Shown here piece after piece: positions 23,073 to 27,413 of a stretch of 48,695 nucleotides of DNA. The DNA is taken from the NCBI GenBank assembly GCA_947061115.1, contig CAMSMU010000003.1, forward strand, positions 1 to 48,695, written 5' to 3'. The translations under genes were made by a program, and so were the position numbers. Numbering within the stretch: the first letter of the stretch is position 1; every line of letters begins with the position of its first letter. The stretch comes from an uncultured Clostridium sp. (GTDB taxonomy: Bacteria > Bacillota > Clostridia > TANB77 > CAG-508). Under the pieces are notes generated by a model, which was not told the origin of the DNA, did no database searches, and worked only from the letters and a program-made list of their open reading frames with translations.

Positions 23073-23268
23073 TTTTTCTTACCTACATCTATTAATATAA
23101 CATAAATTGAACAAATACACAAGATTTGTCTATTTCTTCTAATATTAATTGTTGCATTACATTTATTAAAATATTCTTATAATTTTAAAAATACTTGTAA
23201 CTTTTTATTAAATATTATATATTATATAGTAGTTCACATAGAATGTTAATTTAAAATATATTATATAT

Positions 23269-23420
23269 ATTAGCGCCAGGGCAGTTTTTCTGCTAACGAG
23301 GTTAGAGTGAATCGAAATGATCGGCGGATACTCTATGACACACTATTGTCAATAGATATTATTAAAAAGCATTAGTGATAGTGTAACAAAGTAATATCAG
23401 TAGTCTTTGTGAATTAAATA
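23269..23420 (+). ncRNA. glmS self-cleaving ribozyme/riboswitch
   Basis: Conserved core words in the right order: TAGCGCCAGGGCAG (cleavage just before GCGCC, near 23273), AACGAGG, the ATCGAAATGATCGGCGGAT segment, then the P3/P4 region with CACACTAT pairing to ATAGTGTAA. It ends ~25 nt before the glmS ribosome binding site. Glucosamine-6-phosphate acts as coenzyme for self-cleavage, after which the downstream mRNA is degraded, giving feedback control. The 3' boundary is approximate. Confidence 0.93.
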
Positions 23421-23445: not shown

Positions 23446-25260
23446 ATGTGTGGAATAGTAGGTTATATTGGTACTAAAAAGGCTGTACCAGTGCTTATTA
23501 AGGGATTGCTTTCTCTTGAGTACAGAGGTTATGATTCTTCTGGAATTTGTGTATTAGATAATAATACATTGGATATAGTTAAGGATAAAGGTAGAGTTAA
23601 AAATCTTGAGAACCATCCTGAACTTTCAAATTTAGTTGGAAATATAGGTGTTGCCCATACTAGATGGGCAACACATGGTGTTCCTTCAAAAGAAAATGCT
23701 CATCCTCATTTAGATAATACAAAAACTTTTGCTGTTGTTCATAATGGTATTATTGAAAATTATTCAGAAATTAAACGTTTCTTAGAAAATAATGGGTATA
23801 CTTTAATATCTCAAACTGATACAGAAGTTATTCCAAATTTAATTTCTTATTATTACAGCAAAATAAATAATGTCATGAAGGCTATTACTCTTGCTTTAAA
23901 AGATCTAAAAGGTAGCTATGCTCTTGAAATTATTACTCCCCTTTTAAAAGATTCTATTATTATTGCAAGAAAAGATAGTCCTTTAGTTGTGGGAATTGGT
24001 AATACTGAAAACTACATTGCATCAGACATTCCAGCAATTTTAGAGTTTACAAATAAATTTTATTTTTTAGAAGATAATGAATTAGCTATGATAACTAAAG
24101 ATAAAGTTGATTTTTTTGATATTGATTTAAATAATTTGACTAAAGAAATTAAAAATATTGATTGGGATGTAAATAGTAGCGAAAAAAATGGTTATGAAGA
24201 CTATATGCTTAAGGAAATATATGAACAACCTAAAGCTATAGCTGAAACAATAGGATCAAGATTAAATATTAATGAAAAATGCCATTTTGATGACTTAAAT
24301 ATAGATTTAGCTGACATTAATAAAATATATATTATTGCATGTGGTACAGCAATGCATTCAGGTTTAGCAACTAAATATACTTTTGAACATTTTTGTAATT
24401 TGCCAGTAGAAGTAGATGCTGCATCAGAATTTAGATACAGAAATCCATTAATAGATGAACACACTTTTTGTATTTTTGTAAGTCAATCTGGTGAAACTGC
24501 TGATACTATCGCTGCTCTAAAATTAGCAAAAAATCTTAACTCTAAAACCTTAGCTATTGTTAATGTTATTGGTAGTTCTTTAACTAGAATTGCAGATTAT
24601 ACTATTTATACACATGCTGGTCCAGAAATTGCTGTTGCATCAACTAAAGCATATACTTGTCAAGTTGTCATTTTAAATATTCTTGCTGTATATTTTGCTG
24701 AGTTATTAGGATTAAATTCAAAAGAATTAGAAGATTTTAAAGAGGAAATATTAAACCTCCCTGAAAAGACAAAATTAGTATTGGGAAATACAGATATTAT
24801 TAAGAATTTTGCTAATAAAGTATATTCACAAAAAGATATTTTCTTTATAGGTAGAAATATTGATTATCCAGTATGTATGGAGGGCTCTTTAAAATTAAAA
24901 GAAATATCTTATATACATTCTGAGGCATACCCAGCTGGAGAACTTAAACATGGTCCTATTGCTTTAATTGAAGATGGAGTGACAGTAATTGGTATTGCTA
25001 CAAATAAAAATTTATTAGGCAAAACTATAAGTAATATAGAAGAGGTTATAACAAGAGGAGCTAATGTTATGATGCTTAGTAATCAAAATTTACCTAATAT
25101 AAATATTAGTTGTAATATAAGTATACCTGAATGTAACTCATTCCTTTCTCCTATATTATCAATAATTCCACTACAATTATTTGCATACTATATTGCTAAA
25201 TATAAAAATCTCGATGTTGATAAACCAAGAAATTTAGCTAAATCTGTTACTGTTGAATAA
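23446..25260 (+). CDS. glmS: Glutamine-fructose-6-phosphate aminotransferase (isomerising)
   Basis: 604 aa. Makes glucosamine-6-phosphate from fructose-6-phosphate and glutamine, the first step to UDP-GlcNAc for the cell wall. Catalytic Cys2 in MCGIVGYIG, glutaminase motifs HTRWATHG and HNGIIENY, two SIS sugar-isomerase domains (CGTAMHSGLATKY, SQSGETADTIAAL, STKAYTCQ), and the terminal DKPRNLAKSVTVE. ATG 23446 after AGGAGG. Regulated by the ribozyme in its leader. Confidence 0.97.
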   Translation: MCGIVGYIGTKKAVPVLIKGLLSLEYRGYDSSGICVLDNNTLDIVKDKGRVKNLENHPELSNLVGNIGVAHTRWATHGVPSKENAHPHLDNTKTFAVVHNGIIENYSEIKRFLENNGYTLISQTDTEVIPNLISYYYSKINNVMKAITLALKDLKGSYALEIITPLLKDSIIIARKDSPLVVGIGNTENYIASDIPAILEFTNKFYFLEDNELAMITKDKVDFFDIDLNNLTKEIKNIDWDVNSSEKNGYEDYMLKEIYEQPKAIAETIGSRLNINEKCHFDDLNIDLADINKIYIIACGTAMHSGLATKYTFEHFCNLPVEVDAASEFRYRNPLIDEHTFCIFVSQSGETADTIAALKLAKNLNSKTLAIVNVIGSSLTRIADYTIYTHAGPEIAVASTKAYTCQVVILNILAVYFAELLGLNSKELEDFKEEILNLPEKTKLVLGNTDIIKNFANKVYSQKDIFFIGRNIDYPVCMEGSLKLKEISYIHSEAYPAGELKHGPIALIEDGVTVIGIATNKNLLGKTISNIEEVITRGANVMMLSNQNLPNINISCNISIPECNSFLSPILSIIPLQLFAYYIAKYKNLDVDKPRNLAKSVTVE

Positions 25261-25337: not shown

Positions 25338-25688
25338 CTATTTTGATAATCTAATTTCTTTCTCCATCCATGATGGTATTGGATTTTTAGTGCCTAATGT
25401 ATACATCAGACAAATTTTTACCTTAGAATCATTTTTATAATAACAGTATATTTTGTTATATAATTCTTCTGTCAGTAATCCTGTTCCTATCATAGATATA
25501 ATAATGGAACTATAGTCTTCTGATGTAGCCATCATTTCGTCAATTAACTCATCAAAATTTTCTGTGCTTTCTGCTCTGTATAACATGCGGGCTAAACTCT
25601 CTTTTTCTAATTCAGATTTAGGAAGCCGTCTTATTGTTATTTCCTTCGCATAACAGCAATCGTTACACTTAAAAAGCATTTCTTTCAT
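25338..25688 (-). CDS. Hypothetical 116-aa protein with Cys-rich N-terminus
   Basis: Start set at ATG 25688, with AAAGGAG ~11 nt upstream, rather than 25721. The N-terminus MKEMLFKCNDCCYAKE has CxxCC, which could bind a metal; the middle is helical and acidic (ESTENFDELIDEMMATSEDY), and a CYYKNDSKVKICLMY segment follows. No membrane segment. I do not recognise the family. It has its own promoter and an elaborate structured leader, suggesting regulated expression. Confidence 0.6.
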   Translation of the reverse strand: MKEMLFKCNDCCYAKEITIRRLPKSELEKESLARMLYRAESTENFDELIDEMMATSEDYSSIIISMIGTGLLTEELYNKIYCYYKNDSKVKICLMYTLGTKNPIPSWMEKEIRLSK

Positions 25689-25774
25689 ATTACCAAATCT
25701 CCTTTCAAAATTATTTAACAACTGGAGACATGGTAGAAGTCTCCAATTGCAGTTGAAGACTCTAAGTCTTTGTT
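25689..25774 (-). promoter_or_regulatory. Structured 5' leader of the 116-aa gene
   Basis: From the expected start near 25774 the leader contains AAGACT-TAG-AGTCTT (hairpin) and then CAACTG…GGAGAC-loop-GTCTCC-AGTTG, a two-part stem in which both outer and inner arms pair. The second stem ends ~20 nt before the ribosome binding site. No T run follows, so translational or stability control is more likely than attenuation. Confidence 0.5.
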
Positions 25775-26006: not shown

Positions 26007-26035
26007 TTGACATTTATTTGTGAGCCGTGTATAAT
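26007..26035 (+). promoter_or_regulatory. Consensus promoter of the plus-strand sRNA
   Basis: TTGACA (26007-26012), exactly 17 nt, TATAAT (26030-26035). Both hexamers are perfect; no ORF follows before a terminator 85 nt downstream. Confidence 0.85.
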
Positions 26036-26041
26036 AAAAGT

Positions 26042-26120
26042 AGGAAATAAAGAATCCACGTAAGTGGTTGCCGAAAGAGTTATAACCATTCCCTCGTCAA
26101 AGCAGAATGGTTATTTTTTT
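26042..26120 (+). ncRNA. Candidate small RNA, possible type I antitoxin
   Basis: About 79 nt between a perfect promoter and an intrinsic terminator. It has a first hairpin CCAC-GTAA-GTGG (26056-26067, GNRA-type loop), then CCGAAAGAG, then the terminator stem. No start codon with a ribosome binding site. Its 3' end meets the stop of a convergent gene for a 38-aa hydrophobic peptide at 26119, so the peptide mRNA, which has no terminator of its own before this point, would be antisense to the RNA. Confidence 0.65.
26082..26120 (+). terminator. Terminator of the plus-strand sRNA
   Basis: ATAACCATTC (26082-26091), 13-nt loop, GAATGGTTAT (26105-26114), then a T7 tract. Confidence 0.88.
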
Positions 26121-26235
26121 ATTGCCTATATAGTAAAAAACAAATGATGATTAATAAGGCAATATTTATGATAGTTATTCCTACTAATCCATAGAATAGT
26201 AGGTTAGTAATTTCTAATAACGCTATTTCTACCAT
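26119..26235 (-). CDS. 38-aa hydrophobic peptide, candidate type I toxin
   Basis: ATG 26235, 6 nt after AAAAGGAGGTGG; TAA at 26121-26119. The peptide starts MVEIALLEITNLLFYGLVGI and ends TIINIALLIIICFLLYRQ: acidic short N-terminus, about 25 hydrophobic residues, basic end. This matches the build of the BsrG/TxpA-like Firmicutes type I toxins, which are 30-60-aa membrane peptides with an antisense RNA overlapping the 3' end. The mRNA leader is ~108 nt and can mask the Shine-Dalgarno. The toxin role is inferred from architecture, not from recognised homology. Confidence 0.6.
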   Translation of the reverse strand: MVEIALLEITNLLFYGLVGITIINIALLIIICFLLYRQ

Positions 26236-26240
26236 ATTAA

Positions 26241-26312
26241 CCACCTCCTTTTGTTACATTCTCACAACTAAAAGTTGTGGCATAATATGTATTCATCTAA
26301 AGTAAAAGGTGG
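26241..26312 (-). promoter_or_regulatory. Shine-Dalgarno masking elements in the 38-aa gene leader
   Basis: Near the 5' end of the mRNA, CCACCTTTT (26312-26304) is complementary to the AAAAGG and GGTGG parts of the ribosome binding site (26252-26241), with a 3-nt bulge. Between them CACAACT-TTT-AGTTGTG (26279-26263) forms a perfect 7-bp hairpin that would bring the two parts together. Confidence 0.55.
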
Positions 26313-26349
26313 CAACTCACTCCGCTTATTCTTTTTTCCTACATTTACC

Positions 26350-26378
26350 ATTATAATGCATTTTCGTTTATTTGTATA
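26350..26378 (-). promoter_or_regulatory. Promoter of the 38-aa peptide gene
   Basis: TATACA (26378-26373), 17 nt, TATAAT (26355-26350); the -35 matches TTGACA at four of six positions. Confidence 0.55.
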
Positions 26379-26443: not shown

Positions 26444-26491
26444 AAACACCTCTTATTTATTAATTTTCTAATCAATAAATAAAAGGTGTTT
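26444..26491 (-). terminator. Terminator downstream of spo0A
   Basis: AAACACCT…AGGTGTTT with further TTATTTATT/AATAAATAA pairing, about 20 bp in all; minus-strand tail GTTTTTATG. Lies ~100 nt after the spo0A stop; the 26492-26594 stretch holds nothing else I can support. Confidence 0.7.
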
Positions 26492-26594: not shown

Positions 26595-27413
26595 CTATGC
26601 TGATTTTAGTTCTAATCTTAATTTATCTGCTATCATTGCGATAAATTCTGAATTTGTTGGCTTTCCTTTAGTTGCTGATACTGTGTATCCAAATATATTT
26701 TCTGTTACTTTTGGATCTCCTCTACCCCACGCTACTTCTATTGCATGGCGTATTGCTCTTTCTACTCTAGAAGGTGTTGTTCCATATTTAGTTGCAATAT
26801 CTGGATATAATTGTTTTGTTATTTGATTAATCATTTCTATATTATTTACTGACATTATTATTGCTTCTCGCAAAAATTGATATCCTTTTATATGTGCTGG
26901 AACTCCAACTTCATGAATAACATTTGTTACAGCTGCCTCTAAATTTCCTTTCTTGTTTTCTTCTGTTCCCTTTACTGTTATATATGGTGATTTTATTTCT
27001 CTATTTAAACTAATATCATTAATTCTTTCTGGATTCTCTGTTTTTATTTCTTTTATTCTTTGTGTTAATATAGAAATATCAAATGGTTTTACTATATAAT
27101 AGTCTGCTCCTAATACTATTGCTTTTTGCGTAATTTTGTCCTGCCCAACAGCTGATATCATAATTTTTGTTGGATTATTTTCTAGTTTAGATTTATTTAA
27201 TTTCTCTAGAACACCTATTCCATCTAAATTTGGCATTATTACATCTAGTAATACTACATCTGGTTTTAGTCTTACTATATCTGAATATGCCTCTTCTCCA
27301 TCTCTTGAAATTTTTATTATTTCCATACTTTCATCATTACTTAAATAATTTTTTAATGTCATACCAAATTCATAGTTATCATCTGCTATTAAAATTCTTA
27401 TTTTGTCATTCAC
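26595..27413 (-). CDS. spo0A: Sporulation master response regulator Spo0A
   Basis: 272 aa. Phosphorylated Spo0A switches the cell into sporulation by binding 0A boxes. Receiver domain 1-~120: acidic pair Asp11/Asp12 (LIADDNYEF), phospho-acceptor Asp57 ([10 protein letters not shown]), switch residue in MISAVG, conserved Lys in YIVKPFD. The C-terminal DNA-binding domain is typical ([20 protein letters not shown], then [18 protein letters not shown]). The start is GTG 27413, 8 nt after AGGAGG. A TTGAAT-17-TATAAT promoter lies upstream, and an AGTCGAAAAA at 27566-27557 resembles a 0A box at most positions, hinting at autoregulation. Confidence 0.97.

Follow-up and report, generated by a model that had tools for sequence, protein, structure and literature searches.

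Whether a short hydrophobic peptide and the small RNA gene convergent with it form a type I toxin–antitoxin (TA) module, and how such an RNA would control the peptide, are the questions raised by positions 26007–26378 of the window, i.e., the whole 48,695-nt stretch of DNA analyzed here. The initial annotation had proposed a type I TA locus from the letters alone. Comparison with the 77 distinct full-length relatives that were gathered showed that this segment is a conserved module, and every testable hallmark named in that proposal was found to be conserved across the family. Judged at the level of sequence, the cassette is therefore very probably a type I TA module, with the peptide as its presumed toxin.

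The plus-strand RNA had been described as having a perfect TTGACA-17-TATAAT promoter. This promoter (26007–26035, + strand; TTGACA at 26007–26012 and TATAAT at 26030–26035) is the sole 12/12 match within 25–27.5 kb of the window, and it is present in all 77 distinct cassettes, matching at 12/12 positions in 63 and at 11/12 in 14, with a spacer of 17 nt in 75. An antitoxin RNA of about 80 nt (26040–26120, + strand) is predicted, and a covariance model, R1, was built for this antisense RNA. On the other strand, sequence matching indicated a weaker promoter for the peptide mRNA (TATACA-17-TATAAT, 26350–26378, − strand), which in the 77 cassettes usually reaches 8–10/12 and is far weaker than the antisense promoter. 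A leader of ~108 nt is predicted between this promoter and the ORF, and the predicted 3′ tail of the mRNA (26040–26121, − strand) is complementary to the antitoxin RNA. The full-length predicted mRNA folds far better than its shuffled versions (z −5.2), and the antisense RNA alone folds modestly better than shuffles (z −1.6). Moreover, the stop codon of the peptide overlaps the T-run of the antitoxin RNA, and this convergent 3′ overlap, which was part of the original description, is conserved across the family.

The intrinsic terminator annotated for the plus-strand RNA was likewise recovered. The RNA ends in a stem, ATAACCATTC...GAATGGTTAT, followed by a T-run, and the hairpin (26082–26120, + strand), in which AAAGCAGAA is conserved on the 3′ side, is backed by two-sided compensatory changes at 6/7 stem pairs among 36 sequences. 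The stem is always palindromic, and the mRNA side also carries a T-run in many relatives, although by no means in all; the terminator may therefore act partly in both directions. In the window, the sequence after the stem on the mRNA side (ATAACTC) is poor. An Rfam search of the window returned a glmS riboswitch only (23261–23408, 78.5 bits); this ribozyme/riboswitch lies ahead of a 604-aa ORF (23446–25260), presumably glmS.

The ORF on the minus strand (26119–26235) encodes the 38-aa hydrophobic peptide MVEIALLEITNLLFYGLVGITIINIALLIIICFLLYRQ. It is intact in nearly all copies of the cassette, and its changes fall mostly at codon position 3, with a pooled dN/dS of 0.54 despite the added RNA constraint. 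The window peptide is thus under purifying selection, and a small hydrophobic peptide is conserved throughout the family. In one copy (G057:C11; L023/L051/L177), the peptide is frameshifted while its antisense RNA is intact. The window peptide ends in LLYRQ and has no charged C-terminal tail, and none of the aligned peptides contains proline. The initial annotation had not recognized the peptide, and it proved to be absent from curated families: no Pfam or NCBIfam match was found at E up to 1 and no PADLOC family, and a PHROGs search with the window peptide type only gave nothing convincing.

Other peptides were found through antisense-RNA matches that had no recognizable window-type peptide beside them. 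A second peptide family, MVKVILFFIISFMLSLTLNVALATVLYKNWVDKQLHK (MVKVILFF...YKNWVDKQLHK; loci L142–L154, L185–L188, L203 and L215–L217), shares the antisense RNA and the leader and has a charged C-terminal tail, and further types, such as METILLQIIYLLFFGLVGITIIAIALIIALVVILSK and MIEFLAYILLALYISIVINIALLVTIATILNNKE, occur in the same RNA frame. Searches with some of these other types yielded no Pfam, NCBIfam or PADLOC family. The swapped peptides may be distant relatives; an N-[IV]-A-L stretch is common to several of them.

A search for the peptide and the RNA in related Clostridia, as suggested initially, found peptide homologs in 73/195 genomes of the same family and cassette DNA in 118/195. 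R1 matched 186/287 genomes of the order, with up to eight copies per genome, but gave no match in the 298 genomes taken from elsewhere in the phylum; in the window's own genome (1.29 Mb, 76% complete), it detected a single copy. In addition, scanning 85,000 species genomes gave at least 80 loci, and those among the matches listed were all from uncultured Clostridia, Clostridiaceae, Clostridium or Eubacteriales MAGs, many of them gut-derived. Tandem cassettes lie within a few kb of each other, some with differing peptide types (L033/L099 in G118:C5; L126), and the search of viral contigs confirmed no relative. The peptide gene and the convergent small RNA, its probable silencer, make up a previously undescribed family with hundreds of members within a single order of uncultured gut Clostridia.

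The cassette of the window is located between a 127-aa ORF (25338–25721, − strand), for which no significant Pfam or NCBIfam match was found, and spo0A (26595–27413), directly downstream of spo0A and in the same direction. A long hairpin of 20 pairs lies between spo0A and the cassette (26444–26491); on the minus strand T comes after it, and it is likely the spo0A terminator. Reading of the loci by hand showed co-directional cassettes ≤450 nt downstream of spo0A in at least 13 genomes of 10 genera, that of the window included (G000, G048, G054, G062, G064, G069, G082, G085, G091, G099, G189, G192 and G034), for which we estimate a chance expectation of well under one genome. In genus mates of the window, the cassette was absent from the spo0A loci that were compared. 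The window's own genome also encodes a second Spo0A-C-like protein (G000 contig C13, 7564–8328), for which a single 331-aa frame was matched in two stretches.

A further feature concerns the 5′ ends of the two RNAs. Over its first ~33 nt, GUAGGAAAUAAAGAAUCCACGUAAGUGGUUGCC (26040–26072, + strand), the antisense RNA nearly copies the corresponding stretch of the peptide mRNA, GUAGGAAAAAAGAAUAAGCGGAGUGAGUUGCC (26311–26342, − strand). The two arms have the same sense, and hence form an inverted repeat in the DNA. Consequently, the last ~33 nt of the mRNA 3′ tail, if transcribed, would be the complement of the antitoxin as well as of the 5′ end of the same mRNA; in the window, the 5′ arm of the mRNA was computed to form 29 bp with its own tail (−38.3 kcal/mol). 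On an mRNA ending at the shared terminator stem, this tail would never be made. The initial annotation overlooked these inverted repeats, which give both RNAs one 5′ sequence, as well as the exchange of peptides, the spread across the order and the linkage to spo0A.

The arms co-vary across loci. GUUGCC, GUUUGCC and GUUUUGCC change in step in both RNAs, and rare forms, e.g., GUAGAAAUAAGAA, AUAGGAAAAGGAAA and AUAGAAAAUGUGAA, are common to both RNAs of a locus (L043, L061, L030, L007, L018, L101 and L084). Furthermore, mRNA arms were predicted to pair better with their own tails than with swapped ones (−35.4 vs. −29.2 kcal/mol; 0/20,000 permutations), and the same test on disjoint nearest-neighbour pairs, which are approximately independent only, gave p = 0.009. 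The possibility that the inverted repeats are the ends of a mobile element was rejected, as conservation extends beyond the repeats to both promoters.

The predicted pairing bears on the translation start. The initial annotation had noted a very strong ribosome binding site; the Shine–Dalgarno (SD) sequence AAGGAGGUGG (26241–26250, − strand), with AAGGAGGTGG located 5 nt ahead of ATG, is strong but masked, and both properties are conserved across the family. The two leader elements described there were also present: the sequence complementary to the ribosome binding site, CCACCTTTT, and the closing hairpin CCACAACTTTTAGTTGTGAG. The anti-SD was placed at 26304–26313 (GCCACCUUUU, − strand) and the leader hairpin at 26261–26280 (CCACAACUUUUAGUUGUGAG, − strand). 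GGUGG of the SD has a possible pairing partner inside the leader, GUUGCCACC, of which a part, GUUGCC, is also the inner end of the 5′–3′ pairing. Structure prediction, another step that had been proposed, placed the SD under a mask of ~10 kcal/mol in every state.

Thermodynamic, rather than co-transcriptional, folding was then used to compare these states. When the tail was blocked where the 5′ arm of the antitoxin would bind, the predicted opening energy of the SD increased in 42/48 relatives, by a mean of +1.9 kcal/mol (p = 2.5e-8), whereas control blocks did not raise it (−0.1 for part of the terminator and −2.1 for 42 nt of the ORF). Meanwhile, the computed SD:CCACC pairing rose in the window type from 0.12 to 0.34, in subfamily T1b from 0.39 to 0.98 and, for the second peptide family, from 0.55 to 0.96. 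The switch is small in the window's own copy and subfamily (10.0 to 10.7 kcal/mol). Direct pairing of the antitoxin with the translation start was also considered and rejected, as it did not differ from that of shuffled RNAs (z −0.3; 2/40 below −2).

These predictions suggest the following mechanism. The weak minus-strand promoter would produce the mRNA for the 38-aa membrane peptide, and the strong plus-strand promoter an antitoxin RNA of ~80 nt that overlaps the 3′ end of this mRNA and imitates, in its first ~33 nt, the mRNA's own first ~33 nt. In a free full-length mRNA, the 5′ arm would lie on the 3′ tail and hold part of the anti-SD GUUGCCACC. The antitoxin would occupy the tail and evict the 5′ arm, and the released GUUGCCACC would close on GGUGG; the long duplex of the two RNAs would be a substrate of RNase III, and decay would follow. 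We give this displacement switch an even chance. The more extended proposal, that the antitoxin mimics the 5′ end of its target and vies with it for the 3′ tail, that the evicted arm is a translational lock and that several toxin peptides across the order share one exchangeable RNA frame, is put forward tentatively, at somewhat less than that.

In its predicted working, the cassette resembles the convergent type I systems of Gram-positive bacteria, and the features of the class can be read from its DNA: a small hydrophobic peptide ORF with translation signals and coding constraint, and an overlapping antisense RNA gene with its own promoter and terminator. In Bacillus subtilis, bsrG/SR4 and txpA/RatA are likewise convergent with 3′ overlap, encode hydrophobic toxins of ~38–59 aa and mask the ribosome binding site in the leader by a few GC pairs. 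SR4 binds at the 3′ end of bsrG mRNA, whereupon the helix that sequesters the SD grows from 4 to 8 bp (PMC6562991), a tightening from the 3′ end that resembles the proposed displacement. However, SR4 is longer than the cassette antitoxin, and for neither system is the antitoxin described as copying the 5′ end of the mRNA; judged by Pfam and NCBIfam models (E up to 1), the window peptide does not fall in the TxpA/BsrG toxin family. Similarly, par/Fst of pAD1 (Enterococcus) has convergent promoters, a short antitoxin, an SD in a leader helix and, in each RNA, a repeat at the 5′ end (PMC7472228). Its RNAs also share a bidirectional terminator, a role that the palindromic stem of the cassette may partly have. 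Its repeats are direct, so that the two RNAs are complementary, whereas those of the cassette are inverted and the RNAs are alike, and the PXXXG(C) motif of the Fst toxin is absent from the cassette peptides. Clostridioides difficile CD2517.1-RCd8 and its relatives also pair a small hydrophobic peptide with a convergent overlapping antisense RNA (PMC6563280). Many of these toxins, of 34–59 aa with charged ends (lysine-rich in phage homologs), are found in prophages, in contrast to the cassette with its lack of confirmed viral relatives; their lysine-rich C-terminus is missing from the window peptide, although the second peptide family ends in YKNWVDKQLHK.

The same 5′–3′ pairing could also have the opposite effect. 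Refolding of an inactive into an active mRNA through 5′–3′ pairing is described for Gram-negative systems, whereas a review of B. subtilis systems reports other solutions (PMC6562991). The main rival to displacement is a type I TA module in which, as in hok/Sok and aapA1/IsoA1 (PMC6733600; PMC8167048), the pairing would render the full-length mRNA stable and inert, 3′ trimming would activate it and the antitoxin would catch the activated form. The pairing itself, predicted here with co-variation, and those precedents speak for it. We nevertheless regard it as unlikely, because in thermodynamic folding the SD becomes less accessible once the tail is lost or covered, the reverse of activation. 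In addition, the antisense RNAs of hok and aapA1 cover the 5′ region, whereas that of the cassette lies over the 3′ tail, the very stretch with which the 5′ end would pair, so that trimming would also remove the antisense target.

Another explanation dispenses with the pairing: an ordinary convergent module controlled by RNase III decay in the manner of txpA/RatA, whose arms are an inverted DNA repeat kept alike by gene conversion and have no regulatory role. In an automated count with noisy block edges, transitions between the arms that fit wobble pairing were as frequent as those that do not (22:23), and co-variation is equal on the opposite strand; pairing on the mRNA strand is therefore not proven, and both observations suit this explanation. 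Conversion, however, would give identity, and the middle of the arms (GCGGAGUG vs. CACGUAAGUG) is not identical, still pairs and co-varies (44/6/3/22, p = 1e-10, with phylogeny not fully removed). Pairing is also stronger on the mRNA strand in 54/62, though one ancestral difference may explain this, and we consider this ordinary module with converted arms improbable. A slighter chance still is given to the view that the peptide is not a toxin but a small membrane regulator or a stress peptide, with the antisense RNA limiting its production. The charged C-terminal tail that many type I toxins have is missing from the window peptide, whose gene is chromosomal and adjoins spo0A, as this view would have it, but such a tail is present in the second peptide family. 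Furthermore, the patchy, multi-copy occurrence, the swapping of peptide types under one antitoxin frame and the frameshifted copy beside an intact antisense RNA form the pattern of a TA module rather than that of a housekeeping peptide.

Taken together, a new chromosomal type I TA family with displacement control is the best overall explanation of these data, and we hold it to be reasonably probable. An order-wide TA family of uncultured gut Clostridia would thus be added to those represented in Pfam, NCBIfam, PHROGs, PADLOC and Rfam, from which, as used here, it is absent. The strong natural co-variation of its arms makes 5′–3′ control in a toxin mRNA of Bacillota directly testable in B. subtilis. 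Moreover, the recurrent adjacency to spo0A raises the question of whether these modules protect the sporulation regulator from loss.
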